Positions 16,877 through 36,377 of a DNA stretch of 64,000 bases are shown here, piece after piece (positions within the stretch are counted from its first letter, which is position 1; each line of letters opens with the position of its first letter). The DNA comes from Thiohalorhabdus sp. Cl-TMA (lineage in GTDB: Bacteria > Pseudomonadota > Gammaproteobacteria > Thiohalorhabdales > Thiohalorhabdaceae). The stretch spans positions 372,001 through 436,000 of the forward strand of contig NZ_JBGUAW010000002.1 of assembly GCF_041821045.1 (NCBI RefSeq), read 5' to 3'. The position numbers and the translations under genes were made by a program. The notes beneath the pieces are model-generated. The model had not been told where the DNA came from and made no database searches. It worked only from the letters and a program-made list of their open reading frames with translations.

Positions 16877-17914
16877 ATGGCCGCGTCCGAAATGACGGGT
16901 GAATACCGTCCGGCCTGGTGGCTGCCCGGGGGCCATTTGCAGACCCTGTGGCCGGCCCTGCTGCGCCGGCCGCCGCGGGTGGCCGTGGCGCGCGAGCGCC
17001 TGGAGCTGGAGGACGGCGATTTCCTGGATCTGGACTGGTTGGCGGAGGCTCCCGCCGGTGGTCCGGTGGTGATCCTCGTTCACGGGCTGGAAGGCTCCCT
17101 GGAATCCCACTATCTGCCCGGCCTCATGCGCACGCTGGCCGACTGCGGCATGCGCCCGGTGCTCATGTACCACCGCGGCTGTAGCGGCGAGCCCAACCGC
17201 ACCGACCGCCGCTACACCGGCGGGGACACCGGCGACCTGGCTTGGGTGGCGGAGATCCTGCGCACCCGCGAGCCCGACATGCCCCTGACCGCGGTGGGCT
17301 TCTCCCTGGGCGGCAATCTCCTGCTCAAATGGCTCGGGGAGACGGGGGCCGACAACCCCCTGGCCGCCGCGGCGGCGGTCTCGCCGCCCTTCCGGCTGGA
17401 CCGGGCGGCGGACCGGCTGGAGCATGGCCTGTCGCGGCTCTACCAGGAGCACCTCTTGCGGGCCCTCCGGGCGTCCGTGACGGCCAAGTACGCCCATCGA
17501 CCGCAGGCCTGTCCGGTGCCCCTGGACCGGGTGCGCTCCGCGTCCAGCTTCCGCGCCTTCGATGACGCCTTCACCGCGCCGGTGCACGGTTACGCCGGGG
17601 TGGACGACTACTATGCCCGCGGCAGCTGCCGCCCCTACCTCCGGGGCATCGCCGTTCCCACCCTCGTCCTCCACGCCCTGGACGATCCCTTCACCACGCC
17701 CGATGCCGTTCCCGCCCCCGGGGAGCTATCCGGGCACGTGCAACTGGAGCTCCACCGACACGGCGGCCACGTGGGCTTCGTGATCGGGAACCTCCCCGGG
17801 AGGCCGCGCTACTGGATCGAGGAGCGCGTGCCCGCCTTCCTTTGCAATACGGTTACCACCCCCGAAACCCCCGCCCGGGGAGTCGTCAGCCCCGACCGCA
17901 CCCTGTCTTCATAA
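16877..17914 (+). CDS. yheT: YheT-type alpha/beta hydrolase
   Basis: The 345-residue protein begins with WWLPGGHLQTLWPALLRR, the hallmark of the YheT/ABHD1-3 hydrolases, then has the oxyanion strand VVILVHGLEGS, YHRGCSGEPNR, and the nucleophile elbow AVGFSLGGN with Ser143. Asp in LHALDDPF and His in RHGGHVGF complete the triad. Members act on lipids or esters; the exact substrate is unknown. A GGGAG-containing site precedes the ATG. Its stop codon overlaps the proposed Pho-like box in front of the TonB cluster. Confidence 0.88.
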   Translation: MAASEMTGEYRPAWWLPGGHLQTLWPALLRRPPRVAVARERLELEDGDFLDLDWLAEAPAGGPVVILVHGLEGSLESHYLPGLMRTLADCGMRPVLMYHRGCSGEPNRTDRRYTGGDTGDLAWVAEILRTREPDMPLTAVGFSLGGNLLLKWLGETGADNPLAAAAAVSPPFRLDRAADRLEHGLSRLYQEHLLRALRASVTAKYAHRPQACPVPLDRVRSASSFRAFDDAFTAPVHGYAGVDDYYARGSCRPYLRGIAVPTLVLHALDDPFTTPDAVPAPGELSGHVQLELHRHGGHVGFVIGNLPGRPRYWIEERVPAFLCNTVTTPETPARGVVSPDRTLSS

Positions 17915-17923
17915 AACTGTAAC
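17906..17923 (+). promoter_or_regulatory. Possible PhoB box upstream of the TonB cluster
   Basis: TCTTCAT, a four-base AAAA spacer and CTGTAAC match 14 of the 18 positions of the enterobacterial Pho box. It overlaps the stop of yheT and lies about 100 bases before the DUF3450 gene. The first half-site is poor, and the hexamer 10 bases downstream (GAAGGT) keeps only two -10 positions, so this is weaker than the other Pho boxes in the window. Confidence 0.45.
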
Positions 17924-18025
17924 GCCTGTCCGTGAAGGTATGTGGTCTGCGGGCCGTCCTTGGCGCTGTCCCCGGGCGGCCGCGGAATCCCCCGCAAGCC
18001 ACAGATCCCAACCGGAGAGTCAAGG

Positions 18026-18808
18026 ATGGCGATCCGCAGTTTCCCGGTCCGGCTCCTGGGGGGGCAGCTGCTGTGCCTCCTCCTCATGCAGCCGGCCTCG
18101 GCCGCCGGTGAATCCCTGGACCGGCTGGCCGAGAAGCTCGTCAACCTCCGCGGCGAGGTGGAGGAGCTGAACAGCCGGCTGGACAGCCTTCGCGACCAGC
18201 ACAAGAACGAAATGGCCTCCCTGAGCCGGCGCAAGTCGGACCTCCAGAGCCGGATCCAGCAGCGGCAGGTCCAGGTGGACGAGCTGCGGACGAACCTGCG
18301 CGAGATCCGGGAGGAGGCGCAGAAGGCCGGCGTGGAGGCGGAGGCCCTCGAGCCCAAGGTGGCCGACGCCATCGTGACCCTGAAGACCCGGGTGCGCCGG
18401 GGACTGCCCTTCAAGGTGGCGGAGCGGGTCGGCGAGCTGGAGGACATCCGCAAGCAGATGGCCACCGGTGTCCTGACTCCCCACAAGGCCGCAAAGCGCC
18501 TCTGGACCTTCTACGAGGATGAGATCCGCCTCGCCGAGGAGAACGGCATCTACCAGCAGACGGTCACCGTGAACGGCGAGGAGAAGCTCGCCGACGTGGC
18601 CCGGGTGGGCATGGTGATGCTGTTCTTCCGTACCCCGGCCAGCCAATACGGACGGGCGGTGCGCTCGGATGGCGGCTGGACCTATCGCGTTTACCGACGG
18701 GATGCCGCGCGCGAGCAGGTGAAGAACCTGTTCGCTTCCTTCCGCAAGCAGGTCCGGACCGGCTATTTCACCATCCCCAATGCGCTGACCGGCACGGAGG
18801 ACCAATAG
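18026..18808 (+). CDS. DUF3450 periplasmic coiled-coil protein of a TonB2-type cluster
   Basis: The 260-residue product has a signal peptide (ending near QPASA), a long coiled coil (about 28-110) and a C-terminal domain ending in YFTIPNALTG, as expected for DUF3450. In Vibrio-type TonB2 systems, proteins of this family are encoded next to TtpC, ExbB2, ExbD2 and TonB2. It is the first gene of a run of eight co-directional genes; the next ATG follows its stop directly. The role is probably structural, in the periplasm, linking the motor to the receptor. Confidence 0.85.
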   Translation: MAIRSFPVRLLGGQLLCLLLMQPASAAGESLDRLAEKLVNLRGEVEELNSRLDSLRDQHKNEMASLSRRKSDLQSRIQQRQVQVDELRTNLREIREEAQKAGVEAEALEPKVADAIVTLKTRVRRGLPFKVAERVGELEDIRKQMATGVLTPHKAAKRLWTFYEDEIRLAEENGIYQQTVTVNGEEKLADVARVGMVMLFFRTPASQYGRAVRSDGGWTYRVYRRDAAREQVKNLFASFRKQVRTGYFTIPNALTGTEDQ

Positions 18809-20233
18809 ATGCGCGCAGCAGGAAAGTGGTTGGGCTTCGCTCTCGCCGCGGCACTGCTCGTTGCTGTGCCGAGCATCCCGCCGGCCCAGGCGCAGACGTC
18901 GGGCGGTGGGCCGGAAGGTGCCGGCAAGGGCGGTGGTGCCCCGGATCCGGATCCCGCCATGGGCCGGGAAGCGCTGGAAAAGGCGTACAAGCGGGAGTTC
19001 GCCTTCCTGGAAGCCCAGAAGCGCTCCCTTCAGGAGCGCCTCGCGCAATTCCAGGACCGCGCGGCGGGCGAAAAGCAGGCGCTGGAGCAAGAGGTCCAGC
19101 GGCTCAAGGACGAGGCGGTGCGCCTCAAGACCCGCATGGAAACGCTGCGGGAGCAGGTGAAGACCGCCGAGGAGCAGCTCCAGTCCAACAAGAACAGCCG
19201 GCAGATCCTGGAGGCCACGTTCACCCAGGCGGGCGTGACCCTCAAGGATTTCGGCTTTCCCGTGGGCAAGGGCAGCGAATTCCGCCAGCTCGATGACGAG
19301 CGGAGGAAGGTGGAGCGGCTGTTCTCCATGGGCAATGCGGTGCTGGATCGGACCAGCGGTATCCGGCGCGAGTCCGGCAGCTTCTTCCTGGCCGACGGCA
19401 CCAAGGTGGACGGCACCCTTCTCAAGGTGGGCCGGGTGGCGTCCTACGGCCTTAGCGACGAGGCCTCCGGCGCCCTGGCGCCCGCCGGCGGCGGTGCCCT
19501 GAAGCTCTGGAAGAAGCCCGCCGCCGGCGTCGCCGAAGGGCTCGCCAACGGCGATGCGCCCGAGCAGCTGAAGATCTTCCTGTACGAATCCCTCGACCAG
19601 GAAGTGGCCACGCCGGATTCGGACACGGTGCTGAGCACCATCCGCAAGGGCGGAGCCATCGGCTGGATCATAGTCGCCATGGGCGCCTTCGCCGGGCTGC
19701 TGGCCCTGCTGCGCGCCGGCTTCCTGCAGTGGGCCAGCGCTTCCACCGGCCGCATCATCGACCGCGTGGGCGCCCTGGTGAGCCGGGGCGAGGTGGAGGA
19801 GGCCCAGGCGCTCTGCGAGCGCAAGCGCGGCGCCGCCTGGAAGGTGGTGGGCGCCGCCGTGCGCAACCTCAACCGCGACCGCGAGCACCTGGAAGACATC
19901 ATCTCCGAGTCCATCCTGCGCGAGAGCACACGCCTGGACCGCTTCGGCCCCCTGATCCTGGTGATCGCCGCGGTGGCGCCGCTGCTCGGCCTGCTCGGCA
20001 CGGTCACCGGCATGATCTCCACCTTCGAGGTCATCACCGAGCACGGCACCGGCGATCCCAAGCTGCTCTCCGGCGGCATCTCCGTGGCCCTGGTCACCAC
20101 CGAGCTGGGGCTCATCGTGGCGGTGCCCACCCTGCTCGCCGGGAACCTCCTGTCCGGCTGGGCGGAGCGCATCAAGAACGACATGGAGAAGACCGCCCTG
20201 CGCATCACCAACCTGTACGCGGGCCGTGCGTGA
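18809..20233 (+). CDS. ttpC: TtpC-like MotA/TolQ/ExbB proton channel protein with periplasmic N-terminal domain
   Basis: The 474-residue protein has a signal peptide (cleavage after PPAQA), a coiled coil at about 50-130, a periplasmic domain and then a MotA/TolQ/ExbB domain (about 260-470) with LGLLGTVTGMISTFEVI and the GISVALVTTELGLIVAVP helix. That arrangement defines TtpC, the extra component of TonB2-type motors. It likely couples proton motive force to the TonB protein. It starts immediately after the DUF3450 stop and ends in a TGATG overlap with the next exbB, showing translational coupling. Confidence 0.88.
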   Translation: MRAAGKWLGFALAAALLVAVPSIPPAQAQTSGGGPEGAGKGGGAPDPDPAMGREALEKAYKREFAFLEAQKRSLQERLAQFQDRAAGEKQALEQEVQRLKDEAVRLKTRMETLREQVKTAEEQLQSNKNSRQILEATFTQAGVTLKDFGFPVGKGSEFRQLDDERRKVERLFSMGNAVLDRTSGIRRESGSFFLADGTKVDGTLLKVGRVASYGLSDEASGALAPAGGGALKLWKKPAAGVAEGLANGDAPEQLKIFLYESLDQEVATPDSDTVLSTIRKGGAIGWIIVAMGAFAGLLALLRAGFLQWASASTGRIIDRVGALVSRGEVEEAQALCERKRGAAWKVVGAAVRNLNRDREHLEDIISESILRESTRLDRFGPLILVIAAVAPLLGLLGTVTGMISTFEVITEHGTGDPKLLSGGISVALVTTELGLIVAVPTLLAGNLLSGWAERIKNDMEKTALRITNLYAGRA

Positions 20234-20958
20234 TGGGGTACGGGGCGCTCGCCGACCTGGTCCAGCTCCTCCTGGAGCAGGTGGGCGTGACCGAGCAAGG
20301 GGCGGAGCGGATCGCCGGTGATTTCGCCGGCTATTTCGCCGCCGGCGGCTTCGTCATGCCGCCGCTGGTGCTGGCGGCGGTGCTCCTGTGGTTCGCCATC
20401 GGCTACCGGGTGGCCGCCCTGCGCATGGGCACCACCCGCGATGTGCAGGACCTCCTGGAGCGTTACGCCGGCCACCCGCCGGCGCGCACCCGGGGCATCG
20501 TCGACGATGCGGCGGTGCGCGGCCTGGCCCTGGCCCGGGAGGGCCACGCCCACCTGCGGCGCTGGCTGGACGACGAGTTCATGGCCTACGAGGCGGAGCT
20601 GAAGAAGTTCTCCCGGCTCACCGTAACCCTCGTGGAGGTGGCGCCGATCATGGGCCTGCTCGGCACCGTGGTGGGCATGATCGAGACCTTCGATTCCCTC
20701 CGGGACATGGCGTTGTTCACCCAGTCCGGCGGTATCGCCGGGGGCATCTCCCAGGCCCTGTTCACCACCCAGATGGGGCTGGTGGTCGCCATCCCCGGGC
20801 TCATCATGCACGGCCTGCTGCGCAAGAAGCAGCAGGCCATCCGTATGGAGCTGGCCCGCATCAAGGACCTGCTCTGCACCGAGCCGGCGGGCTTCTTCCT
20901 GCCGCGGGCGGAGACGGCCCCGGATCAGACCGCACCACAAAGGCAGGCTGACGGATGA
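20233..20958 (+). CDS. exbB: ExbB-type proton channel subunit
   Basis: The 241-residue inner-membrane protein has a first helix at about 36-56, then the ExbB/TolQ core VEVAPIMGLLGTVVGMIETFD and GGISQALFTTQMGLVVAIPGLI. It forms the pentameric proton channel with ExbD and energises TonB. Its ATG overlaps the stop of ttpC and its own stop overlaps the exbD ATG, so the genes are one coupled unit. Compared with E. coli ExbB it has the usual length and lacks any extra domain. Confidence 0.92.
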   Translation: MGYGALADLVQLLLEQVGVTEQGAERIAGDFAGYFAAGGFVMPPLVLAAVLLWFAIGYRVAALRMGTTRDVQDLLERYAGHPPARTRGIVDDAAVRGLALAREGHAHLRRWLDDEFMAYEAELKKFSRLTVTLVEVAPIMGLLGTVVGMIETFDSLRDMALFTQSGGIAGGISQALFTTQMGLVVAIPGLIMHGLLRKKQQAIRMELARIKDLLCTEPAGFFLPRAETAPDQTAPQRQADG

Positions 20959-21365
20959 AATACCGCTACCGGAACGCGGGCGAAGAGAGCGACAAGATCG
21001 ATATCCACCCCCTGATCGACGTGGTGTTCATCCTGCTGATCTTCTTCATGGTGTCCACCACCTTCGTCAAGGACATGAACCTGGATATCGACCGGCCCAA
21101 GGCCTCCAGTGCCAGCCAGGCCGACAGCAATACCATCCGGGTCTACATCGACGGCAACGGCAATACCTTCCTGGACGGGCAGCCGGTGCGCACCTGGGTC
21201 ATCCAGAGCCGGCTGCGGGACATGCTGCAGGTGAGCTCCTCCAAGAATGTCCTGGTGGTCACCGACGACAAGGTGCCCGCCGGCAAGCTGGTGCAGGTGG
21301 TGGACCAGGCCAAGCTGGCCGGGGCCGAGGACGTGGGTGTCTCCACCCAGGCAAGCGGCAGCTAG
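20955..21365 (+). CDS. exbD: ExbD-type transport subunit
   Basis: The 136-residue protein has a single N-terminal membrane helix, DIHPLIDVVFILLIFFMVST, whose Asp in LIDVVF is the conserved proton-binding residue, followed by a periplasmic domain ending in the strand-turn AGAEDVGVST. It completes the ExbB-ExbD motor. It overlaps exbB by four bases (ATGA), and tonB starts ten bases after its stop. Confidence 0.93.
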   Translation: MKYRYRNAGEESDKIDIHPLIDVVFILLIFFMVSTTFVKDMNLDIDRPKASSASQADSNTIRVYIDGNGNTFLDGQPVRTWVIQSRLRDMLQVSSSKNVLVVTDDKVPAGKLVQVVDQAKLAGAEDVGVSTQASGS

Positions 21366-21375
21366 GACCGCCCCA

Positions 21376-22023
21376 ATGGCCCACACCCATCCCCTGCGCA
21401 ACTATGCCTCCGCGACGGGCTTCATGGTCCTGGGCACGGCCCTGGTATTGGGCACGGTGCTCCTGATCAACGCCTACAACAAGGGTCCGGATAAGAAGGA
21501 AGTGGAGGACACCGCCCGCTTCAACGTGGCTCCGCCGGAGCCTCCGAAGCAGGAGCAGGTGGAGCCCGAGCCCGAACCGGAGCAGGAGCCCCAGGCCAAT
21601 AATCCGCCGCCCTCGCCGCTGCAGGGCCTGGGTACCTCGGTGGGCGCTGGCAGCTTCGAGATCGCCACCCCCGATTTCGGCGGTAACGCCGGCGGCCTCG
21701 ACGACTCCCTGCTCGGCGACACCCGCGACGTGGTCATGACCGACGACTCCGTGGACGTGCCGCCCAAGGCGGTGGAGCGCGCCGCCATGCAGTATCCCGC
21801 CGCGGCCCGCCAGAAGGGCATTACCGGGTTCGTGACGGTGAACCTGCTCGTCAACGCCGAGGGCCGGGTGGAGAAGGTGAAAGTGCTCGATTCCAAGCCG
21901 GGCGGCGTCTTCGAGGAGGCCGCGGTGGAGGCGGTGCGGGCATGGCGCTTCGAGCCGGCCAAGTACGAGGGCGAGGCCGTGAAGGTCTGGGCCAAGCAGA
22001 AGATCCGCTTCAACCTCAGCTGA
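21376..22023 (+). CDS. tonB: TonB energy transducer
   Basis: The 215-residue protein has an N-terminal inner-membrane helix (about 13-34), a proline/glutamate-rich periplasmic linker (VEPEPEPEQEPQ, about 60-80) and a C-terminal TonB domain (about 125-215) with YPAAARQKGITGFVTVNLLV and VEAVRAWRFEPA. The linker is short, as in TonB2 proteins. It would transfer energy to the TonB-dependent receptor encoded downstream. Position within a tight operon supports a dedicated rather than a global TonB. Confidence 0.93.
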   Translation: MAHTHPLRNYASATGFMVLGTALVLGTVLLINAYNKGPDKKEVEDTARFNVAPPEPPKQEQVEPEPEPEQEPQANNPPPSPLQGLGTSVGAGSFEIATPDFGGNAGGLDDSLLGDTRDVVMTDDSVDVPPKAVERAAMQYPAAARQKGITGFVTVNLLVNAEGRVEKVKVLDSKPGGVFEEAAVEAVRAWRFEPAKYEGEAVKVWAKQKIRFNLS

Positions 22024-22044
22024 CCGCTCCGAGGAACGCACTCC

Positions 22045-23223
22045 ATGCCGATCCCCGAATCATACGCCGCCCGCCTCCTGGCCCTCGGCCTGCTCGTCCT
22101 GCCCGTGGGTGGGATGGCGGCGGACGAGGAAGCGGAGAAGCAGAAGGGCGAGGAAGTGGACTACGTCAGCCTGGGCGCCCGCCTGCTCAAGGACGGGCAC
22201 CTGGGCCGCGCGGAGTCCGCCCTGAAAAAGGCCGATCCGGCCGCCGAGGAGGTGGACGCCGCCCGGCTGTACACCCTCTGGGGGCTGGTGGACCTGAAGC
22301 GCGGCGAGAACGCCTCCGCCCGGGATCACCTGCGCCGGGCCATCGACGCGGGCCAGACCGGGAAGACGGTTTACCTCTACCTGGCCCAGGCCCATTACCG
22401 CCTGCAGGAGTACCGGCCCACCATCGACGCCATCGAGCGCGCCGGACTGGGCGAGCAGGACAACCCCAATCTCTACGCCATCCTGGCCCGATCCCACTGG
22501 GAGCTGGAGAACGGGGCCGAGGCCTGGGCCGCCCTGGATGCGGGCCAGAAGCGCTATCCGGAGCACACCGCCTTCCTGCGCCAGAAGATCTTCTACCTGA
22601 TCGAGCTGGAGCTCTACCAGAAGGCGGCCCGGCTCGGGGAGGAATACCTGGCCGGGGCGCGGGCCACGGTGGCGGACTATCTGGCCATCGGCCGGGCCAT
22701 GCGCCGCAGCGGCCAGCTCGAGCAGGCGCGTGACTTCCTGGAGGCCGCCCGGCTGCAGTACCCCGGTGATCCGCGCCTCGGCATGGAGCTGGCCCAGGTC
22801 TACCTGAAGCTGGACCAGACCCTCACCGCCGCCCAGATCTACGAACAGGCCGCCTTCCGCGACCCCGAGCTGCTGACGGAAGCCGCGGAGCTGTACCGGC
22901 GCAGCGGCAAGCTCTATCGCGCCCTGAACCTCAATGCCCAGGTGGCCGATTCCGGGAAGAAGCTGAAGCAGCGCCTGGCTATTCTCCTGGAGACCGAGCG
23001 CTATGCCATGGCCGCCGCCATGCGGGACGACCTCCTGCGGGCGGGGCTGCTGGAGAACGAGGACATCCGCTACGCGCTCGCCTATGCCCGGTTCAAGAAC
23101 GGCGAGTTCGAGAAGGCCGAGGCCCAGCTCTCCCGGCTGACCCGCTCGGACCTGTTCCGCAAGGCCACCAAGCTGCGCAAGGCCATGGCCGATTGCCGGG
23201 ACGCCGCCTGGAAGTGCTACTAG
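22045..23223 (+). CDS. Periplasmic TPR-repeat protein of the TonB cluster
   Basis: The 392-residue product has a signal peptide (cleavage near GGMAA) and tetratricopeptide-like helical repeats from about 40 to the end, for example LYTLWGLVDLKRGENASARD and DYLAIGRAMRRSGQLEQARD. TPR proteins regularly accompany TtpC/ExbB2/TonB2 operons and are thought to scaffold the complex. It starts 21 bases after tonB. It ends in a Cys-containing tail (CRDAAWKCY). Confidence 0.85.
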   Translation: MPIPESYAARLLALGLLVLPVGGMAADEEAEKQKGEEVDYVSLGARLLKDGHLGRAESALKKADPAAEEVDAARLYTLWGLVDLKRGENASARDHLRRAIDAGQTGKTVYLYLAQAHYRLQEYRPTIDAIERAGLGEQDNPNLYAILARSHWELENGAEAWAALDAGQKRYPEHTAFLRQKIFYLIELELYQKAARLGEEYLAGARATVADYLAIGRAMRRSGQLEQARDFLEAARLQYPGDPRLGMELAQVYLKLDQTLTAAQIYEQAAFRDPELLTEAAELYRRSGKLYRALNLNAQVADSGKKLKQRLAILLETERYAMAAAMRDDLLRAGLLENEDIRYALAYARFKNGEFEKAEAQLSRLTRSDLFRKATKLRKAMADCRDAAWKCY

Positions 23224-23273
23224 CCGCGGCCACGGGAATCCGCTCCGCCAATCCGCCCAGGATTCGAACGAAA

Positions 23274-26200
23274 ATGGACCGCACCAAGACCAGTTTCATG
23301 AAAAAGCTCGGGCTGCTCCTCCTCCTATCCGTCTTCGCGGTACCGCAAGTCCGGGCGCAGGAGGAGCCGGCGCCGGCGGATCTGTCCATGTTCGTCTTCG
23401 ACGACGAGCTCCCCCTGAGCGACGTCACCATCAAGGTGGACGGCCGCCCCCAGGCGGTGACCAACGACAACGGCGCGGCCTGGCTGCTGATCGGCTCCGG
23501 GAAGCGGAAGCTGACGCTGGAGAAGCCGGGGCGGGCCAGCACCGAAATCCGCCTGAAGGTGGGCCGGGGAGAGAACCTCCGCGTCATCACCACGCTAAAG
23601 CCGGAAGGCGGCAAGCCGGAGGTGGACATCCAGTCCTCCGGGCCGAGGGAATCCTTCCTGGCGGTGGGTGGCGAACAGGGCAAGGACGGCGGTCCCACGG
23701 GCACGCTCCAGGGGCGGGTGGTTTCCGCCGAGGACGGCGGCCCGGTATCCGGGGCCCGGGTGTTCATCAGCGGCACGCCCGTGGACATGCAGACCGACAA
23801 GGAGGGCCGCTTCCGCACCAAGCTGCCGGAGGGCACCTACTCCCTGTCCGTGATCCACGGCGACTACAGCACCCAGACGAAGGACGGCATCAAGGTCGGG
23901 GCCGACAAGACCGCCAAGGCTAGCGTCGAGCTCACCCCGGCCGGCCTGGAGCTGCAGGACTTCGTGGTGACGGTGCCGTATATCGAGGGTTCGGTGGCCT
24001 CCACGCTTTCCCAGCAGGAGGAAGCCTCGGGGGTTACCGAGGTCTTGGGGGCGGACCAGATGTCCCGTGCGGGCGATTCCGACGCCGCCGACGCCTTGGC
24101 CCGGGTTACGGGTCTGACCATCGAAGACGGCAAATACGTCGTTATTCGCGGCCAGCCGGCCCGCTACACCGCCACTGTGCTGAATGGCTCCCCCCTGCCG
24201 AGTCCCGACCCCATGCGACGTATCGTTCCTCTCGATCTCTTTCCCACAGGGGTATTGAGCGCCATTGAGGTCCAGAAGAGCTATACGTCGGACCAGCCCG
24301 GAACCTTCGGGGCGGGACTGATCGACCTCAGGACCCGGGGCCTGCCCGAGTCGGGATTCGGCGAGATAGAAATCGGTGCCGGCCTCAACACACAAAGCTT
24401 CGGTGAAAAAGGGCTTACGTACGAAGGAGGCGGGAGCGACTGGCGGGGCGTGGATGACGGCAGTCGCTCGGGTCCTTCCGGGGATACCACAAGCCCCGTA
24501 CCCGGCGATTTCGGCAACGACGAGCACGTCGTGCAGCGGGAAAGCCTCGGTCCCGACCGCTCACTGGCGGTGGCGGGGGGGGGGCGGATTGACACCCCGG
24601 TGGGCAAATATGGGGCGGTTGCCTCCTTTAGCTACGACCAGAAGTGGCGCCATCGCAAGGAATACCGGACTATCTACAGTCTCGGAGGCGGCGAGCTTCA
24701 AAAGAATGAGGAGTACACCCTCGAGCGGACCGACAGGGAAGTGGGTGTTGGGGGCATGCTTACCCTGGGCGGCGAATGGGGCGAGGACCAGAGCATCACC
24801 AGCAATACCTTCCTGATGCGCAAGACCCGGGATCGTACCCAGATAGCCGATGGGGAGCTTACCGCCGAGTACCAGAGGAGCCAGGAATACCGGTTGGCGT
24901 TCAACCGGCGTGCGCTGTTGCTGCAGCAGCTCATCGGGCAGCACAAGCTGCCATTGGGGCTGGGTCTCGACTGGCGTTTCCTGACCGGCGAGGCCGAGCG
25001 CGAGCTACCGGATCGCCGAACCTATACCTACAACTTCCTGGGGGACGAGTCCTACCTGCGCTCCGATATCGGCATGGAGCGCAAGTTCAACACGGTGAAG
25101 GACGATGTCGGAGCCTACAGTGCCGACCTGACCGTACCTCTGGGTGAGGCCGGCTGGCTCAGCGAGGCCGAGGCCAAGCTCGGCATTTCCAATTCGAGCA
25201 AGGACCGGGAAAGCGATACCGCAACCTTCAGCTTTCTGCCCGACGACGAAGCCGGCGTCGACCTGACGCGGGATCCGAATGCGCTGTTCGATCCTGAAGG
25301 ATACGGCGATGCCTTCGAGATCCGGAACGATACCAGCCCCGGTGACAGCTACACCGGCTCGGTCGATGTCAGCAGCCGGTACGCCATGATCAACCTGGAG
25401 CTGATGAAGGCCCTGAAGCTGAATCTCGGGGTTCGCCAGGAACAGGTCGACATGGAGGTGGCCCCCGAAGGCGACAATCCGTCCTCCGGGTTCAAGGAGA
25501 CGCGCACCCTGCCCGGTGCCACCGCCACCTGGAAGATCCGCGAGGACATGAATCTGAGGTTCGCCTTCTCGGAAACCTATTCCCTGCCCATGCTCACGGA
25601 GATCGCCCCTATCGTTTATTCCGATCCCGATACCGGCGAGCCCTTCCAGGGCAATCCGGATCTGGAGCCGGTGGATATCCGCGCCTTCGATATCCGCTGG
25701 GAGTGGTACCCCAGCAATGCCGAGATGCTGACGCTGGCTTGGTTCCGGAAGGCTTACGAGAACCCGATCGAGCGCAGCTTCGCCGACCTGGCGGGCGGGG
25801 ATCGCACCCTCAATCAGATGCGCAACTTCGATCAGGCCGAGGTGAACGGTTTCGAGCTGGGGGCCCGGATCGATCTGGCCGAGCGGCTGTGGGGCCCGGA
25901 AGGACTCTATGCCCAGGCCAACGCCGCCTTCGTGGATTCCAACGTCAGCGTCGAGGACGCCGGTCTGGCCACCAACGACAGCCGTCCCCTGCAAGGCCAG
26001 GCCCCCTGGATCTACAACCTCCAGGCGGGGTATGCCGGCGATATCTGGGATCTGACGCTCTCCTACAACATGGTGGGCGAGCGGCTGTACCAGGCGGGTA
26101 TCCAGGGCTTGCCGGATGTGTATCTGCAGCCGGTGGCGTATCTGGATCTGTCCTCCCGCTTACAGTTTGGCGAGCATTGGTTCCTGCAGTTCAAGGCCGG

Positions 26201-26303
26201 CAACCTGCTCGACCCGACCATCGAGTACACGCAGGGGGGGCGTGGGTACCGGACGTACCAAAAGGGCAGGGACTTCAGTCTCTCCCTGAAGTGGCGCTAC
26301 TGA
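23274..26303 (+). CDS. TonB-dependent outer-membrane receptor with N-terminal carboxypeptidase-regulatory-like domains
   Basis: The 1009-residue protein has a signal peptide (about 9-29), two Ig/CarboxypepD_reg-like beta domains (about 35-110 and 143-222), a possible TonB box (LQDFVVTVP, about 227-235), a plug (about 240-360, with PDPMRRIVPLDLFPTGVL) and a large 22-strand barrel ending in SLSLKWRY. It would import a ligand across the outer membrane using the adjacent TonB motor. The double regulatory-type N-terminus is more common in Bacteroidetes and in receptors paired with surface lipoproteins. An ATG at 23274 was used; MKKLG at 23298 is an equally plausible start. The ligand is unknown; Pho context suggests a phosphorus compound. 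Confidence 0.9.
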   Translation: MDRTKTSFMKKLGLLLLLSVFAVPQVRAQEEPAPADLSMFVFDDELPLSDVTIKVDGRPQAVTNDNGAAWLLIGSGKRKLTLEKPGRASTEIRLKVGRGENLRVITTLKPEGGKPEVDIQSSGPRESFLAVGGEQGKDGGPTGTLQGRVVSAEDGGPVSGARVFISGTPVDMQTDKEGRFRTKLPEGTYSLSVIHGDYSTQTKDGIKVGADKTAKASVELTPAGLELQDFVVTVPYIEGSVASTLSQQEEASGVTEVLGADQMSRAGDSDAADALARVTGLTIEDGKYVVIRGQPARYTATVLNGSPLPSPDPMRRIVPLDLFPTGVLSAIEVQKSYTSDQPGTFGAGLIDLRTRGLPESGFGEIEIGAGLNTQSFGEKGLTYEGGGSDWRGVDDGSRSGPSGDTTSPVPGDFGNDEHVVQRESLGPDRSLAVAGGGRIDTPVGKYGAVASFSYDQKWRHRKEYRTIYSLGGGELQKNEEYTLERTDREVGVGGMLTLGGEWGEDQSITSNTFLMRKTRDRTQIADGELTAEYQRSQEYRLAFNRRALLLQQLIGQHKLPLGLGLDWRFLTGEAERELPDRRTYTYNFLGDESYLRSDIGMERKFNTVKDDVGAYSADLTVPLGEAGWLSEAEAKLGISNSSKDRESDTATFSFLPDDEAGVDLTRDPNALFDPEGYGDAFEIRNDTSPGDSYTGSVDVSSRYAMINLELMKALKLNLGVRQEQVDMEVAPEGDNPSSGFKETRTLPGATATWKIREDMNLRFAFSETYSLPMLTEIAPIVYSDPDTGEPFQGNPDLEPVDIRAFDIRWEWYPSNAEMLTLAWFRKAYENPIERSFADLAGGDRTLNQMRNFDQAEVNGFELGARIDLAERLWGPEGLYAQANAAFVDSNVSVEDAGLATNDSRPLQGQAPWIYNLQAGYAGDIWDLTLSYNMVGERLYQAGIQGLPDVYLQPVAYLDLSSRLQFGEHWFLQFKAGNLLDPTIEYTQGGRGYRTYQKGRDFSLSLKWRY

Positions 26304-26309
26304 GCTCCG

Positions 26310-26365
26310 CTGTCATTTTTCTGCAATTCTGGCGACACATGTCTGTAACCCGCCAAGCCTAGGAT
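26310..26365 (+). promoter_or_regulatory. PhoB-dependent promoter with four tandem 11-bp repeats
   Basis: CTGTCAT (26310), CTGCAAT (26321), GCGACAC (26332) and CTGTAAC (26343) are spaced exactly 11 bases apart by four-base spacers, as in E. coli Pho boxes (CTGTNAY repeats). Ten bases after the last repeat lies TAGGAT (26360-26365), a TANNNT -10 element at the expected position for a PhoB-activated promoter that lacks a -35. Transcription would start about 40 bases before the lipoprotein ATG at 26415. Confidence 0.85.
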
Positions 26366-26414
26366 GTGGATCTGTGTTCCAGCCGATTTTTGCAACCACA
26401 AAGGAGCCTAGGCC

Positions 26415-28025
26415 ATGGAACGGAACAAGGCACTGGCGGCCACGATCAGTCTACTGGCCGCTACCGGGCTGACCGCCTGCGGCGGTGGCGGCGGTGGCGG
26501 TGGCGGTAACGGCGATGACAGCGCCACCTCCTTCCAAAAGCAGTTCTCGGAGAGCGATTCCTATGACGTGATCGAGAACCCCTCCAGCTTTAATCTCAAG
26601 TCTACCACCCTGGCCGTGACGAATCCGGATGGCAGCAACATCGACGGCAGCCTGGCTGCCGGTATGGACGACACCGATTATTACGGCGCCGTGGATCCGG
26701 ATGCCATCAACGACCCGGATAATGATGCCGATGCCACCAACAACGCCTGGTGGCAGGGCTGGACCTACCGCAACGGCAGCGTGGACGGCAATTTTCCCGG
26801 AAGCTCGAATTTCCATCCGCTTGAGGATGAAATCAAGAATTCCATGAGCCCGGATACGAATGATGGGTCCTGCCCTAAAGGTACCCACAAAGGTACTACC
26901 TCGGCGTTTGGGGATAGCTACGACGTGTGCGCCCTGGCGGATGGAGATATCACCGGTAGCACCGCCACCCTCAACAACGAGCACATTTGGCTCCTCACCG
27001 AGACCGTTAACATCGGCGACGGCGGGGATCAGAACAACTCGGCCGGCACCGGCGACGTTGTGCTGACCATCGAACCGGGCACCATGGTCATGGGCGCCTC
27101 CAGCGGCACTGTTGACGACGTGGCCCTGGTCATCACCCGCGGCTCCCAGATCAAGGTGCAGGGAACCAAGGAGCAGCCCGTAATCATGGGTGCGGTGGAC
27201 TTCGACGGCACCACTATTACGGGCGACGTCACCGACTTGACCGACCGCGGTGAATGGGGCGGCCTGGTGGTGGACGGCCTGGCCACGGTGAACTCCGCCG
27301 CCACCCCCGGAAACGCGCCCGGCAACGGCGGCAGCGTCGCCAGTGAGGCAGTGCCCGATGGCAAGGACCGCTACTTTGGCGGCGGCACCGACAACGACAA
27401 CAGCGGCGAGATCCGGTACCTGATCATCGCCGAGTCGGGCTATGCCTTTCGCGAGGACCAGGAGGTCCAGGGGCTCACCCTCGAGGGCGTGGGCAGCGGC
27501 ACCACCGCCACTGACGGCGGTCCGTTCGTCGACTACCTGCAGGTGCTCGGGTCCGAGGACGACGGCGTCGAGTGGTTCGGCGGCACTGCCGGGATGAACC
27601 ACGTGGTCATCAACGGCCAGGACGATGACGGCCTGGACCAGGACCTCGGTTGGCAGGGCAAGGTTCAGTACGCCCTGATCCTCATGGGCGCCGATAACGG
27701 CAACCGCGCTATGGAAACCGACGGTAACGGTGACGACTTCGACGCAAAGCCGTACACCGCGCCGACCATTGCCAACCTCACCGTGATCGGCAATTCCGGC
27801 GGGGACAGCAGCGACACCCTGGCCCATCTGGCCCGCGAGGGCTATCGCGGCAACATCCACCGCACGGTCTACACCGACGATCCCAACAACGGGACCAAGT
27901 TCAAGACCGCCTGCATCGACGTGGATGAGATGAGCGGCAGCAGCTGGCTGGACGATTCGCCGCTCACCTACGAGGACGTGGTGTTCAACTGCGACAACGG
28001 CGCCCTCGCCGACGCCGACGACTAA
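26415..28025 (+). CDS. Surface or periplasmic beta-helix lipoprotein paired with the TonB-dependent receptor
   Basis: The 536-residue protein has a lipoprotein signal with the lipobox LTAC (Cys22), followed by nine glycines and an acidic, low-complexity stretch. The rest has repeats typical of right-handed beta-helices (VVLTIEPGTMVMG, DVALVITRGSQIKVQGTKE, DRGEWGGLVVDGLATVN), a family often encoded beside TonB-dependent receptors. It is strongly acidic, which suits divalent cation binding. An AAAGGAG site precedes the ATG, and its own four-repeat Pho promoter lies in the 111-base gap after the receptor gene. A strong terminator follows. A ligand-capture role for the receptor is inferred. Confidence 0.85.
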   Translation: MERNKALAATISLLAATGLTACGGGGGGGGGNGDDSATSFQKQFSESDSYDVIENPSSFNLKSTTLAVTNPDGSNIDGSLAAGMDDTDYYGAVDPDAINDPDNDADATNNAWWQGWTYRNGSVDGNFPGSSNFHPLEDEIKNSMSPDTNDGSCPKGTHKGTTSAFGDSYDVCALADGDITGSTATLNNEHIWLLTETVNIGDGGDQNNSAGTGDVVLTIEPGTMVMGASSGTVDDVALVITRGSQIKVQGTKEQPVIMGAVDFDGTTITGDVTDLTDRGEWGGLVVDGLATVNSAATPGNAPGNGGSVASEAVPDGKDRYFGGGTDNDNSGEIRYLIIAESGYAFREDQEVQGLTLEGVGSGTTATDGGPFVDYLQVLGSEDDGVEWFGGTAGMNHVVINGQDDDGLDQDLGWQGKVQYALILMGADNGNRAMETDGNGDDFDAKPYTAPTIANLTVIGNSGGDSSDTLAHLAREGYRGNIHRTVYTDDPNNGTKFKTACIDVDEMSGSSWLDDSPLTYEDVVFNCDNGALADADD

Positions 28026-28081: not shown

Positions 28082-28110
28082 GGCCGGCTCCCTAGGGAGC
28101 CGGCCTTTTT
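28082..28110 (+). terminator. Rho-independent terminator of the TonB cluster
   Basis: An eleven-base perfect stem (GGCCGGCTCCC with GGGAGCCGGCC) around a two-base loop is followed directly by TTTTT. It ends the eight-gene TonB cluster and insulates the FIST gene. Confidence 0.88.
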
Positions 28111-28182
28111 GCGTACTGGTGGCTCGCCGCCGTCGCCGGGTACAATGGTTGGTTATTTCTCTCCTTATGACGGTATCCGGAT

Positions 28183-32323: not shown

Positions 32324-33544
32324 CTACACGGCACGCATCCTGAATGGGGTCTCAGGCGCTTGTGCCTCTTCGTTCTCGGTATCCCGGCACCAGCGCGAGT
32401 GGCACGGGATGCGCTCCAGGTCGCAGCGGTGGGCGTAGCGGGCGGCGATGTCCCGCACTTCCTCCATCAGTCCCTCGTCCAGGGTAACGGGGTCCAGGCC
32501 CAGCTCCTGCAGACCGCGATTCTCCATTCGGAGCTCGTTCTCCGCCGCTTCCTTGCGGGGATTATTCAGGAATGCCACATCCGCACCGGTGAGAAAACCT
32601 ACCTTTTGGGATAGTTCCAGGACACGGTGGGTCTCCGTGGCCTGGTTGAAGATGCGCACCCTGTCTCCGGCGTGCGGCGGATTCGTCACCGCCAGCTCGA
32701 TGCAGCGGACCGTGTCCTGGATGTGGATGAAGGCGCGGGTCTGGCCGCCGGTGCCGTGCACGGTGAGGGGATAGCCCACCGCCGCCTGCATGAGGAAGCG
32801 GTTGAGCACCGTGCCGTAGTCGCCGTCGTAGTCGAAGCGGTTGATGAGCCGCTCGTCCATCCGGGTCTGCTCCGTCTGGGTGCCCCACACCACGCCCTGG
32901 TGGAGGTCCGTGATCCGCAGCCCGTCGTTCTTGTTGTAGAACTGGAACAGCAGCTGGTCCTGGGTCTTGGTCATGTGGTAGATGCTGCCGGGATTGGGTG
33001 GATAGAGGATCTCGCGTTCCTCGGCCGTTCCCTCCGGAAGCGGGATGTGCACGGTCAGGTAGCCTTCGGGAAGCGGGGCGGAGGAGGTGGAGTAGCCGTA
33101 GACCCCCATGGTACCGAGATGCACGAGGTGGGCGTCTATGTCTCCCTCCACCAGGGCGCAGAGCACGTTGTGGGTGGCGTTAAGGTTGTTATCCACGGTG
33201 TAGCGCTTCTGCCGGGATCCCTTCATGGAGTAGGGGGCGGCCCGCTGCTCGGCGAAGTGGATTACCGCGTCCGGGCGCTGTTCCCGCAGCAGGTCGAGCA
33301 GTTCGGCGTAGTCCCGGGCGATGTCCAGGTTATGGAACCCGATCTTCCGGCCGGTCAGCTCCCGCCAGGCCTTGAGCCGCGTACCCATGGGCCGGATGGG
33401 CGTCAGCGAAGCGGTTTCCAGCTCGTCGTCGATGGCCCGCCGCGAGAGATTGTCCACGATCACGACCTCGTGGCCGCGCGCGGAGAGGTGGAGCGCGGTG
33501 GGCCAGCCGCAGAATCCGTCGCCGCCTAGTACGATGATCCGCAT
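32324..33544 (-). CDS. sqdB: UDP-sulfoquinovose synthase
   Basis: The 406-residue extended SDR enzyme makes UDP-sulfoquinovose from UDP-glucose and sulfite for sulfolipid (SQDG). It has GGDGFCGWPTALHLS (NAD binding), VIVDNLSRR, FAEQRAAPYSM, the catalytic YHMTK (Tyr and Lys of YxxxK) and HQGVVWGTQT, all typical of SqdB/SQD1. The sulfite-donor handling depends on the whole fold. It is encoded after the glycosyltransferase gene with a 27-base gap, which is the known pairing with the sulfoquinovosyl transfer step. It lies under the reverse Pho promoter at 34635-34690. Confidence 0.93.
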   Translation of the reverse strand: MRIIVLGGDGFCGWPTALHLSARGHEVVIVDNLSRRAIDDELETASLTPIRPMGTRLKAWRELTGRKIGFHNLDIARDYAELLDLLREQRPDAVIHFAEQRAAPYSMKGSRQKRYTVDNNLNATHNVLCALVEGDIDAHLVHLGTMGVYGYSTSSAPLPEGYLTVHIPLPEGTAEEREILYPPNPGSIYHMTKTQDQLLFQFYNKNDGLRITDLHQGVVWGTQTEQTRMDERLINRFDYDGDYGTVLNRFLMQAAVGYPLTVHGTGGQTRAFIHIQDTVRCIELAVTNPPHAGDRVRIFNQATETHRVLELSQKVGFLTGADVAFLNNPRKEAAENELRMENRGLQELGLDPVTLDEGLMEEVRDIAARYAHRCDLERIPCHSRWCRDTENEEAQAPETPFRMRAV

Positions 33545-33571
33545 GCTACCTCCAGAGTGGTTGCGGGGCGT

Positions 33572-34597
33572 TCAGGAGCCCACCGCCAGCGGGGCGGGGC
33601 GGGCCGGGGTGAGATTGTCGAGGAATTCTTCGGTGGCCGACCGCCAGGAGCGGGCCAGGGCCGCCTCCCGGCAGGCCCGGGGGTCGAGCTTCAGGGCTTC
33701 CGTGGCGGCCGTGGCCAGATCCTCGTCCAGGCAGCCCGTGACGCCGTGCGCGACCACGTTCCGGGGCCCCTGCACGGGGTAGGCGGCCACCGGGACGCCG
33801 CACGCCATGGCCTCGTACATGACCAGCCCCAGCGTGTCGGTGCGGCTGGGGAAGACGAAGACGTCCGCCGCCGCCAGGTGGCGGGCCAGCTCCTCGCCCT
33901 GCTTGAAACCGGTGAAGACCGCGTCCGGGTATTCCTCCTCCAGCTGCCGACGCGCCGGCCCGTCTCCCACCACGTACTTGGTGCCGGGCAGGTTCAGCCG
34001 CAGGAAGGCCTCCAGGTTCTTCTCCACGGCCACCCGCCCCACATAGAGGAAGATGGGGCGCTCCGCGGTGAGGAAGTCCTTCTCCCGGGGCCGGAACAGC
34101 TCCGTATCCACGCCGCGGGACCAGAACACCAGGTTGCGGATGCCGTGCGTCTCCAGCTCGGCCCGCATGGTCTCGTTGGTGACCATGGTTCGCCGCCCGG
34201 CGCGGTGGAACCAGCGAAGGAAGGCGTATCCCCACTCCAGGGGGACGAAGGGCAGACGGAGCTGGATGTATTCGGGGAACCGGGTATGGAAGGAGGTAGT
34301 GAACGCCAGGCCCCGACGCCGGCAGTGGGAGCGGGCCGCCAGACCCAGCGGTCCCTCGGTGACGATATGGACCGCGTCGGGCTGGAATTCCCGGAAGGCC
34401 TCCCGGATCAGGCGTCGGGGCCGAAGCGCCACGCGGATGTCCGGGTAGGTGGGCAGGCCCACCGTGCGGGTGCCCTGCGGGGTGACCATGCGAACCTCGT
34501 GGCCCAGGGCTTCGAGCTCCCGGCGGGTGTACCCCAGGGAGGTGACTACCCCGTTGATCTGGGGGGTCCAGGCGTCCGTTACAATGGCGATGCGCAT
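33572..34597 (-). CDS. GT4 glycosyltransferase, likely sulfoquinovosyl- or glycosyl-diacylglycerol synthase
   Basis: The 341-residue protein starts with IAIVTDAWTPQINGVVTSL, typical of lipid-acting GT4 enzymes such as SqdX, and has FHTRFPEYI, WSRGVDTELFRPR, FLYVGRVAVEKNLEAFL and the donor-binding DVFVFPSRTDTLGLVMYEAM (EX7E-like region). Adjacent sqdB suggests it moves sulfoquinovose onto diacylglycerol, but a glucosyl or glucuronosyl transfer is possible. The ATG at 34597 is the family N-terminus. It is the first gene of the operon below the reverse-strand Pho box array. Confidence 0.88.
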   Translation of the reverse strand: MRIAIVTDAWTPQINGVVTSLGYTRRELEALGHEVRMVTPQGTRTVGLPTYPDIRVALRPRRLIREAFREFQPDAVHIVTEGPLGLAARSHCRRRGLAFTTSFHTRFPEYIQLRLPFVPLEWGYAFLRWFHRAGRRTMVTNETMRAELETHGIRNLVFWSRGVDTELFRPREKDFLTAERPIFLYVGRVAVEKNLEAFLRLNLPGTKYVVGDGPARRQLEEEYPDAVFTGFKQGEELARHLAAADVFVFPSRTDTLGLVMYEAMACGVPVAAYPVQGPRNVVAHGVTGCLDEDLATAATEALKLDPRACREAALARSWRSATEEFLDNLTPARPAPLAVGS

Positions 34598-34634
34598 AGG
34601 CACGGTCGGCTTCCCTCGAATTTGCAATCCGTAG

Positions 34635-34690
34635 ACTGTGCCTTGCGCGGTTTGCAGTTTTGTAACGCGGATATTGCGGATTTGTTGCAG
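34635..34690 (-). promoter_or_regulatory. PhoB box array for the glycosyltransferase-sqdB operon
   Basis: Read on the minus strand, CTGCAAC (34690-34684), CCGCAAT (34679-34673), GCGTTAC (34668-34662) and CTGCAAA (34657-34651) recur every 11 bases with four-base spacers, the Pho-box geometry. Ten bases later is CACAGT (34640-34635), a weak -10 in the expected place. The predicted transcript starts about 30 bases before the ATG at 34597. Confidence 0.72.
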
Positions 34691-34728
34691 CGGGCTACAG
34701 CGAAGGGAGATTTTTGCGGGGGGTTGCG

Positions 34729-34762
34729 CTGTAATTTTGCTGTCACGGACCGGTCCTATGCT
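34729..34762 (+). promoter_or_regulatory. PhoB-dependent promoter of olsBA
   Basis: CTGTAAT (34729-34735), a TTTG spacer and CTGTCAC (34740-34746) form a near-consensus Pho box. Exactly ten bases further is TATGCT (34757-34762), a good -10. This places the transcription start about 35 bases before the olsB ATG. It is divergent from the array controlling sqdB. Confidence 0.85.
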
Positions 34763-34803
34763 GATTGCGCAATTCAGTGGCAAGGAAGCCAGGAGCAATC
34801 AGC

Positions 34804-35580
34804 ATGGGTGCCCGTCAGGAAACTTCACCGCTCCAAGCGGAGCCGGTTCTCCAGCGTAACCGTCTGGAGGTGGTGGTGGCGGAAAGCCGGGCGGAAGTCG
34901 AGCGCTGCCAGCGCCTGCGCTACGAGGTGTTCACCGCCGACCTGGGGGCCCGCATCGCCACCAGCCGCCCCGGTCTCGACCATGACTCCTATGATGCGTA
35001 TTGCCGCCACCTGTACGTCCGGGACAATCGTACGGGGGCCATGGTGGGAACCACCCGGCTGCTCACGAGCGCGGGCGCGGTGGCTGCTGGCGGGTTCTAC
35101 TCGGCGGGCGAGTTCGATCTGAGGCGGGTCCTCTCCCTGCCCGGGCGGTTCCTGGAGGTGGGTCGCACCTGCATCCATCCCGATTACCGGCGGGGCGCGG
35201 CCATCACCACCCTTTGGAACGGCATCGCCGGCATGGCCATCGCGGAGGGGAGCGATTACCTGATCGGCTGTCCCAGCATCCCCCTGGGAGGGGGCCGAGC
35301 CTATGCCCTCGCCGTGATGGATCACCTGCGGGCCCATTACCACGTCCCCGAATCGCTGCGGGTGGTCCCCCGCCATCCCCTGCCGCGGGATCCGGAGCTG
35401 CCGGCCGAGACGGAGGCGGTCCTGCCGCCCCTCATGAAGGCCTACATGCGCCTGGGGGCCCGGGTCTGCGGGGAGCCATTCTGGGACGAAGACTTCAACG
35501 TGGCGGATGTGTTCATCCTCCTGGAGACCGGCGCCATCACCCGTCGCTACGCCCGCCACTTCTTCCGGGAGTCCCGGTGA
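34804..35580 (+). CDS. olsB: L-ornithine N-alpha-acyltransferase OlsB
   Basis: The 258-residue GNAT-fold enzyme adds a 3-hydroxyacyl chain from ACP to ornithine to make lyso-ornithine lipid. It matches OlsB blocks: QRLRYEVFTADLGA, LDHDSYDAYCRHLYV, GTTRLLTS, FYSAGEFDLRR, LEVGRTCIHPDYRRG, TLWNGIAGMA, MKAYMRLGARV and DEDFNVADVFILLE. An AGGAGC site precedes the ATG. Its stop overlaps the GTG start of olsA, so the two steps are coupled. It is controlled by the near-consensus Pho box just upstream. Confidence 0.93.
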   Translation: MGARQETSPLQAEPVLQRNRLEVVVAESRAEVERCQRLRYEVFTADLGARIATSRPGLDHDSYDAYCRHLYVRDNRTGAMVGTTRLLTSAGAVAAGGFYSAGEFDLRRVLSLPGRFLEVGRTCIHPDYRRGAAITTLWNGIAGMAIAEGSDYLIGCPSIPLGGGRAYALAVMDHLRAHYHVPESLRVVPRHPLPRDPELPAETEAVLPPLMKAYMRLGARVCGEPFWDEDFNVADVFILLETGAITRRYARHFFRESR

Positions 35581-36377
35581 GGCGCCGGCGCGCCTTGCCG
35601 GGCAGCCTGCGGCTGCTCGTACGCCTCGGTCCCCTGACGCTCTTTCTGGCCCTGTCGCCCCTGCTTGCCGTGCTGCTCCTGCCCGCCTCCGGGGGAAGTC
35701 GGCCGCGGGTGGTACGGCTCTGGTCGCGGACGGCGGCCCGCCTGGTGGGGCTGCGCGTGCGCGTATCCGGCGTCCCCGCGCCCGGCGGGGTGCTGTTCGC
35801 CGCCAACCATATCTCCTGGCTGGATATCCTCGCTTTCAACGCCGTCCACGCGGCCACCTTCGTGGCCAAGCGCGAGGTGCGGGACTGGCCGCTTTTCGGG
35901 TGGCTGGCCGCCCGGGCGGGGACGGTCTTCCTCGACCGGGGGCGCCGCAGCGCCCTGCTCGGCGCGGGTGACGTGCTGGCGGATCGGCTGCGGGCCGGAA
36001 AACCGGCGGTCATATTCCCGGAGGGAACGACAACCACCGGTCAGGAGGTGGCGCCCTTCGGGCCCGGGCTCTTCCGGGCGGCCCTGGAAGCGGGTGCCTG
36101 CGTGCAGCCGGTGACCCTCCGCTACGGCGCCCCGGGAAGCCCGGATACGGTGGCGCCTTTCGTCGGCGACGACAGCCTGGTGCCGCACCTTTTGCGGCTT
36201 TTGGCCCGGCCCGGTACCCGGGTGCGGGTACTGTTCCACGAACCGGTTTTTCCCGGGGAGAACCGCCAGGCGCTCGCTGCCGAGGCGCGTGTCCGGGTCC
36301 GGGCGGGCCTGCTCCCGGTTCCGGCCGCCGCCGATTCCCGGGACCACGAATCCGAGCTTTCCTCCCTCCCGGGCTGA
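35577..36377 (+). CDS. olsA: Lyso-ornithine lipid O-acyltransferase OlsA
   Basis: The 266-residue membrane protein has an N-terminal hydrophobic helix, the acyltransferase NHISWLD (HX4D), the FVAKREVRDWPLFGWLAAR block, and FPEGTTTTG, all typical of the PlsC family. Next to olsB it should add the second acyl chain to give ornithine lipid. It starts at a GTG that overlaps the olsB stop. A C-terminal extension of about 30 residues is poorly conserved in type. A general 1-acylglycerol-3-phosphate acyltransferase role is an alternative. Confidence 0.88.
   Translation: MRRRRALPGSLRLLVRLGPLTLFLALSPLLAVLLLPASGGSRPRVVRLWSRTAARLVGLRVRVSGVPAPGGVLFAANHISWLDILAFNAVHAATFVAKREVRDWPLFGWLAARAGTVFLDRGRRSALLGAGDVLADRLRAGKPAVIFPEGTTTTGQEVAPFGPGLFRAALEAGACVQPVTLRYGAPGSPDTVAPFVGDDSLVPHLLRLLARPGTRVRVLFHEPVFPGENRQALAAEARVRVRAGLLPVPAAADSRDHESELSSLPG

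Follow-up and report, generated by a model that had tools for sequence, protein, structure and literature searches.

A probable PhoB-controlled outer-membrane phosphorus-acquisition cluster with an ElpS-type lipoprotein and its own TonB energiser in Thiohalorhabdus sp. Cl-TMA

Caulobacter ElpS is a surface lipoprotein that is produced specifically under phosphate starvation (PMC2996285), and the ElpS-related Flavobacterium johnsoniae lipoproteins FI, FII and FIII, which are 31–36% identical to the Caulobacter protein, are strongly induced by low phosphate, two of them beside receptors that are also induced; FI is the most abundant exoprotein (PMC8115612). The function of ElpS-type lipoproteins has been a standing question since 2010, even though such a lipoprotein can be the most abundant exoprotein of a phosphate-starved cell. 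Here we describe an eight-gene cluster of Thiohalorhabdus sp. Cl-TMA in which a lipoprotein, apparently of this family, follows a TonB-dependent receptor and the genes of a complete TonB energiser. The cluster occupies positions 18026–28025 (∼10 kb) of the window, the stretch of 64,000 nucleotides that was analysed (RefSeq assembly GCF_041821045.1, contig NZ_JBGUAW010000002.1, positions 372,001 to 436,000). Judging from its sequence and its relatives, we consider it probable that the cluster is a PhoB-controlled outer-membrane phosphorus-acquisition system.

A preliminary description of this DNA, made from its letters alone, had proposed control by phosphate starvation, and five independent lines of evidence support outer-membrane acquisition under such control: Pho boxes are conserved across classes, phoB-phoR or pst genes adjoin homologous loci, the cluster appears to have replaced a Pho-boxed Porin_O_P gene that congeners have at this locus, the genome itself encodes PhoB, PhoR and Pst and has a matching Pho box there, and homologues have been published as phosphate-starvation-induced (PMC2996285, PMC8115612).

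Between the receptor and lipoprotein genes lie four 11-bp repeats (CTGTCAT-TTTT-CTGCAAT-TCTG-GCGACAC-ATGT-CTGTAAC), the four-repeat Pho promoter that the preliminary description had assigned to the lipoprotein. With a scoring matrix over 11-bp repeats the site scores 34.7 as a 40-mer, the top value in the 119 kb of the genome that were scanned (runner-up 23.3), and none of the dinucleotide shuffles of the lipoprotein upstream region outscores it. The matrix was used in exchange for a plain consensus scan (CTGTMAY-N4-CTGTMAY, three mismatches allowed), which gave no excess over chance; the strength of the box thus resides in its four-fold register. A TAGGAT hexamer downstream would, by analogy with known PhoB promoters, serve as the −10 element. 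The three top-scoring 18-mers in the 119 kb lie before the lipoprotein (26310), before olsB-olsA (34729) and before pstS on contig C1. The genome carries phoB-phoR-pstSCAB, with the pstS site acting as positive control, and both features by which Pho (PhoB) regulon membership is judged, a Pho box and PhoB, are present. A PstS-like match on contig C6 was dropped as a control, its neighbours resembling a tungstate/molybdate-type ABC transporter. A second, weaker Pho-like box lies upstream of the first gene of the operon and has an 18-mer score of 19.1 (rank five in the 119 kb; shuffle p = 0.015); this site and the ElpS family were both overlooked in the preliminary description. That description had also called for a search for the receptor-lipoprotein pair beside Pho boxes in other genomes, and 85 of 122 lipoprotein upstream regions among relatives proved positive at p<0.05 by dinucleotide shuffles. 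The same test was passed by all five testable regions upstream of DUF3450 genes and by only 8 of 118 receptor upstream regions.

The genomic position of the cluster bears on its substrate. In the two closest relatives, the congeners G001 and G002, the genes bordering the locus (yheT on one side, FIST-ROK-metX on the other) stand in identical order, but they enclose just one gene, a Porin_O_P gene of the phosphate-selective porin family (PF07396, E 3.5e-18 and 4e-39) with a four-repeat Pho box upstream. Nucleotide similarity to the congener flanks ends at 17833 and restarts at 28116, and the weaker Pho-like box of the window is placed relative to yheT as are the porin Pho boxes of the congeners. 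The FIST gene of the window is 84% identical to that of G001 and 71% to that of G002, which makes G002 the outgroup; the porin is therefore most simply ancestral, and the eight-gene cluster would have replaced a phosphate-type porin in the window's lineage. Elsewhere in the window genome there are two weak Porin_O_P matches, with no convincing Pho box. Exchange of one Pho-controlled outer-membrane function for another is more direct evidence of a phosphorus substrate than the promoter is by itself.

All eight genes are intact and co-directional by open reading frame (ORF) reading and profile scans (Table 1), and the domains match the set as first listed. A MotA_ExbB domain is found in both TtpC and ExbB, and TonB_C in the TonB protein. 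The ttpB-like gene takes its name from the first gene of the Vibrio TonB2 operon, and the TPR gene has the position of ttpD in the Vibrio TonB2 and TonB3 operons (PMC6957404). The receptor has the two anticipated N-terminal regulatory-type domains (CarboxypepD_reg), a plug at residues 248–346 and a barrel reaching the C-terminus; it scores 235 bits against TIGR01782, under the cut-off of 310. A terminator does end the set, about one site of that quality being expected by chance in shuffled sequence. The genome encodes ten plug-domain receptors and several further ExbB/TolQ-type genes, and the energiser of the cluster, which need not be the sole one in the genome, is the one co-encoded with the cluster receptor. 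We note that GC content over the receptor and lipoprotein (23600–28000) is 59–66%, as against ∼70% in the flanks, as could be the case if this part had arrived later.

The regulatory-type domains of the receptor could be taken to mean that receptor and lipoprotein together serve chiefly in sensing or surface signalling and not in import; in one relative (L060) the next gene after the pair is ECF sigma-factor-like, and FecR and sigma genes accompany the Flavobacterium FI cluster (PMC8115612). We regard this as most improbable, since CarboxypepD_reg is not a FecA-type signalling domain, the window cluster is without a sigma or anti-sigma gene, and deletion of CC_0171, the receptor gene beside elpS, left ElpS production in place (PMC2996285).

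The pairing of receptor and lipoprotein is conserved. A profile search of genome contigs gave 80 named loci, Caulobacter vibrioides not among them, whereas a contig search with the window lipoprotein alone gave zero matches; in a sample of 369 genomes of the class, 33 have homologues (for a few of these the match covers the signal region only), as do 53 of 398 sampled from the phylum. By a strict rule at least 109 of 128 lipoprotein ORFs (∼120 loci) have the receptor as direct neighbour, and the exceptions are mostly contig edges or ORF-call artefacts. The eight-gene order is found again at six loci in several gammaproteobacterial families, and three more loci, cut off by a contig or region end, show part of it. 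In L072 and L075, two congeneric relatives, the run reads TonB system, receptor, X, PstS, lipoprotein, PstC, PstA and PstB, and in another family (L070) X and PstS likewise sit between receptor and lipoprotein; X is a protein of 361 aa whose N-terminus is signal-like and which matches no family. A phoB-phoR pair is found near the lipoprotein in six relatives, in one by profile (L121) and in five by tblastn with PhoB and PhoR of the window genome, and pst genes lie within the examined neighbourhood at four loci. The Pst-integrated relatives favour phosphate as the ligand, or a compound that would rapidly give phosphate in the periplasm.

These linkages also bear on whether the cluster might take up iron, another metal or a metal-phosphate and be phosphate-responsive only incidentally. 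Iron uptake in Vibrio is known to employ an energiser of this type (PMC6957404), and the receptor domains are not by themselves diagnostic of substrate. We nevertheless consider metal uptake very unlikely, given that the Pho boxes are conserved, that Pst and PhoBR genes are linked to the pair and that the cluster seems to have displaced a gene of the phosphate-porin family, and the V. vulnificus TonB3 system is of the six-gene type without being bound to iron (PMC6957404).

The lipoprotein is acidic, as first described (mature pI 4.05, with 87 aspartate and glutamate versus 22 lysine and arginine residues). Its lipobox, LTAC-GGG, includes the lipid-attachment residue Cys22, which is nearly invariant among homologues, and is of the outer-membrane sorting type, lacking aspartate at +2. 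Profile scans gave no Pfam or NCBIfam family match, and Protein Data Bank searches with the sequence and with its profile were empty. An AlphaFold2 model (mean pLDDT 71.7, the core mostly better and the first 150 residues poor) shows a beta-helix, as first described; it is right-handed and covers residues ∼151–536, and fold comparison relates it to AlgG, AlgE4, tailspikes and polygalacturonases with Z ∼20–22. The lipoprotein matches that of a Caulobacterales-like genome (G609) with E 7.0e-44 and 39% identity, and in loci of the Caulobacterales type (L110) and of Xanthomonas (L203) the order is lipoprotein-receptor-gspC-gspD, with gspC, D, E and F verified by profiles. We place the lipoprotein in the ElpS family because this order is that of the published Caulobacter elpS-CC_0171-gsp arrangement; the placement goes by way of the Caulobacterales-like homologue and gene order and not through CC_0170 itself. 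There are no type II secretion genes inside the cluster and one gspD on another contig (C10); adjacency to type II secretion genes varies among homologues and hence was not counted as family-defining.

Two side observations concern the history of the family. The lipoprotein is circularly permuted relative to that of L049 (16062–17669), residues 57–210 resembling L049 368–534 and residues 216–510 resembling 51–334; two-unit relatives of ∼900–1000 aa suggest duplication followed by end loss. The lipoproteins of L155 and L203 (Xanthomonas, gammaproteobacteria) show 53–54% identity to the Caulobacterales query and have the type II secretion neighbours in common with it, which suggests transfer of the whole lipoprotein-receptor-secretion block.

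Six invariant acidic residues (D382, D383, E386, D404, D408 and E434) are spaced about one coil apart, a pattern that would fit a site for a ligand, a metal or catalysis. They would also suit a catalytic or Ca2+ site in the serious rival to our reading, in which the lipoprotein assists the extracellular breakdown of organic phosphorus, either as a phosphatase activator or as a beta-helix hydrolase or lyase with phosphorylated or cell-wall glycans as substrates, and the receptor imports a released organic product and not phosphate. ElpS overexpression raises secreted alkaline phosphatase activity, ElpS itself being no phosphatase (PMC2996285), the Flavobacterium authors suggest that glycans are bound or hydrolysed (PMC8115612), and pectate lyases, polygalacturonases and epimerases have this fold too. 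A fold this common proves no function, however, and no GH28 or lyase family was matched. Nor did a scan of 85 neighbours reveal any phosphatase, phytase or nuclease that clearly recurs next to the pair (Exo_endo_phos occurs in two); no phosphatase or glycan enzyme is among the most recurrent neighbour families, whereas PstSCAB and PhoBR recur. On balance we find the breakdown-accessory explanation rather unlikely.

A phosphorus-acquisition system could operate as follows. When phosphate is scarce, PhoB would act at the four-repeat box of the lipoprotein and probably at the weaker box upstream of the energiser and receptor genes. The ElpS-family lipoprotein, which we infer to be surface-exposed and induced by low phosphate, would bind, concentrate or process a phosphorus-bearing ligand, and the adjacent receptor, powered by the TtpB-TtpC-ExbB-ExbD-TonB-TtpD complex that is encoded with it, would carry the ligand through the outer membrane, so that phosphate would then arrive at PstSCAB. 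A more specific version, that phosphate itself (or polyphosphate or a metal-phosphate) is imported by the TonB system and that the pair feeds PstS directly in place of a passive phosphate porin, is put forward only tentatively, with the balance somewhat on the other side. If it is true, the runs containing PstS and PstCAB would be a complete surface-to-cytoplasm phosphate relay.

Several points weigh against this scheme. Caulobacter ElpS is cleaved and released, elpS deletion leaves alkaline phosphatase activity unchanged, and CC_0171 is not phosphate-induced (PMC2996285), so that direct hand-over is not established for the ElpS family. Four loci (L056, L071, L074 and L078) have lipoprotein homologues without a neighbouring receptor; the L056 gene is a second lipoprotein copy in a genome that also holds the full operon. 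The Pho matrix was written from textbook sites and not trained on these genomes, and in the antisense control 25% of lipoprotein upstream regions pass at p<0.05, which is the matrix background in promoters. Part of the Pho signal is promoter AT-richness, yet the sense excess is large.

Table 1. Coordinates of the cluster, its regulatory sites and the compared loci (window positions unless a locus is named).
Feature	Position	Strand	Evidence or remark
ttpB-like gene, DUF3450 coiled-coil protein	18026..18808	+	PF11932, E 1.9e-31
ttpC, ExbB-like, long N-terminal periplasmic part	18809..20233	+	PF01618, E 4.2e-28 at residues 350–460
exbB	20233..20958	+	PF01618, E 9.4e-25
exbD	20955..21365	+	PF02472, E 1.7e-27
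tonB	21376..22023	+	PF03544, E 6.2e-23
ttpD-like TPR protein	22045..23223	+	TPR families, E ∼1e-11
TonB-dependent receptor, 1009 aa	23274..26303	+	PF13620, PF07715, PF00593
Putative ElpS-family lipoprotein, 536 aa	26415..28025	+	homologues, AlphaFold2 model, fold comparison
Four-repeat Pho box before lipoprotein	26310..26349	+	best 40-mer of 119 kb; no shuffle better
−10-like hexamer TAGGAT	26360..26365	+	direct reading; 10 nt past Pho box
Second, weaker Pho-like box TCTTCATAAAACTGTAACGCCTGTCCGTG	17906..17934	+	upstream of first operon gene
Intrinsic terminator	28082..28105	+	10 pairs, 9 GC, then T5
Replaced segment	17834..28115 vs L239 13282-14668	.	blastn flanks 80–83% identical, nothing matching between
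Congener Porin_O_P genes	L239 13300-14539; L240 2379-3831		Pho-boxed, at cluster locus
Pst-integrated runs	L072 2452-17998; L075 6565-19998; L070 6007-16998		pstCAB in L072 and L075 only

The window holds a second island of possible phosphate response at 32324–36377, where two genes, one from the UDP-sulfoquinovose synthase (sqdB) family and one for a lipid-type glycosyltransferase, are divergent from the olsB-olsA-like ornithine-lipid genes. A strong Pho box lies at 34729–34746, and the profile scores of the island are under curated cut-offs. It looks like phospholipid-sparing membrane remodelling under phosphate starvation.

The component parts of the cluster and the phosphate induction of homologues are already known. 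For the eight-gene phosphate-controlled operon, the Pst-integrated form and the porin exchange, we found no description in a literature search that had most subscription journals outside its reach. The eight-gene version provides the lipoprotein with its own receptor and energiser, and the Pst-integrated versions tie it to phosphate import; together with these, the porin swap, a natural comparison within one genus, makes function testable. The system is widespread, and if confirmed would extend TonB-dependent transport to a bulk phosphorus source, with a bearing on nutrient competition in low-phosphate waters and soils.

Caulobacter ElpS (CC_0170) and CC_0171 share with the cluster the lipoprotein family, the adjoining TonB-dependent receptor and phosphate-starvation control, which for the cluster is predicted from its Pho boxes, but in the window the receptor precedes the lipoprotein and a full TonB energiser stands in place of the neighbouring type II secretion genes; relative to some family members the lipoprotein unit is also permuted. 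The F. johnsoniae lipoproteins resemble the cluster lipoprotein in lying beside TonB-dependent transporters (PUSIII/PUSIV), and there both partners are induced by low phosphate (PMC8115612); they belong to another phylum, no adjoining TonB operon is reported, and the likeness is drawn from the published description. The Vibrio TonB2/TonB3 operon ttpB-ttpC-exbB-exbD-tonB-ttpD has the identical six genes in identical order; TonB2 is iron-regulated, whereas the window set has a Pho-like box upstream and the receptor and lipoprotein downstream (PMC6957404). OprO/OprP-type Porin_O_P genes, each preceded by a Pho box, stand at this locus in the two congeners, but form a passive porin family with no sequence relation to the receptor. 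The preliminary description found the pair reminiscent of Sus with a different lipoprotein fold. As an analogy this holds, in that SusC/SusD and PusCD also combine a surface lipoprotein with a TonB-dependent receptor, and the predicted beta-helix is indeed different; membership does not hold, as the receptor reaches 22.2 bits against the SusC/RagA family TIGR04056 (cut-off 368), over residues 144–284 only, and profile scans give the lipoprotein no SusD match. By these comparisons the cluster combines an ElpS-type pair with a TonB2/3-type energiser, and is not a Sus system by descent.

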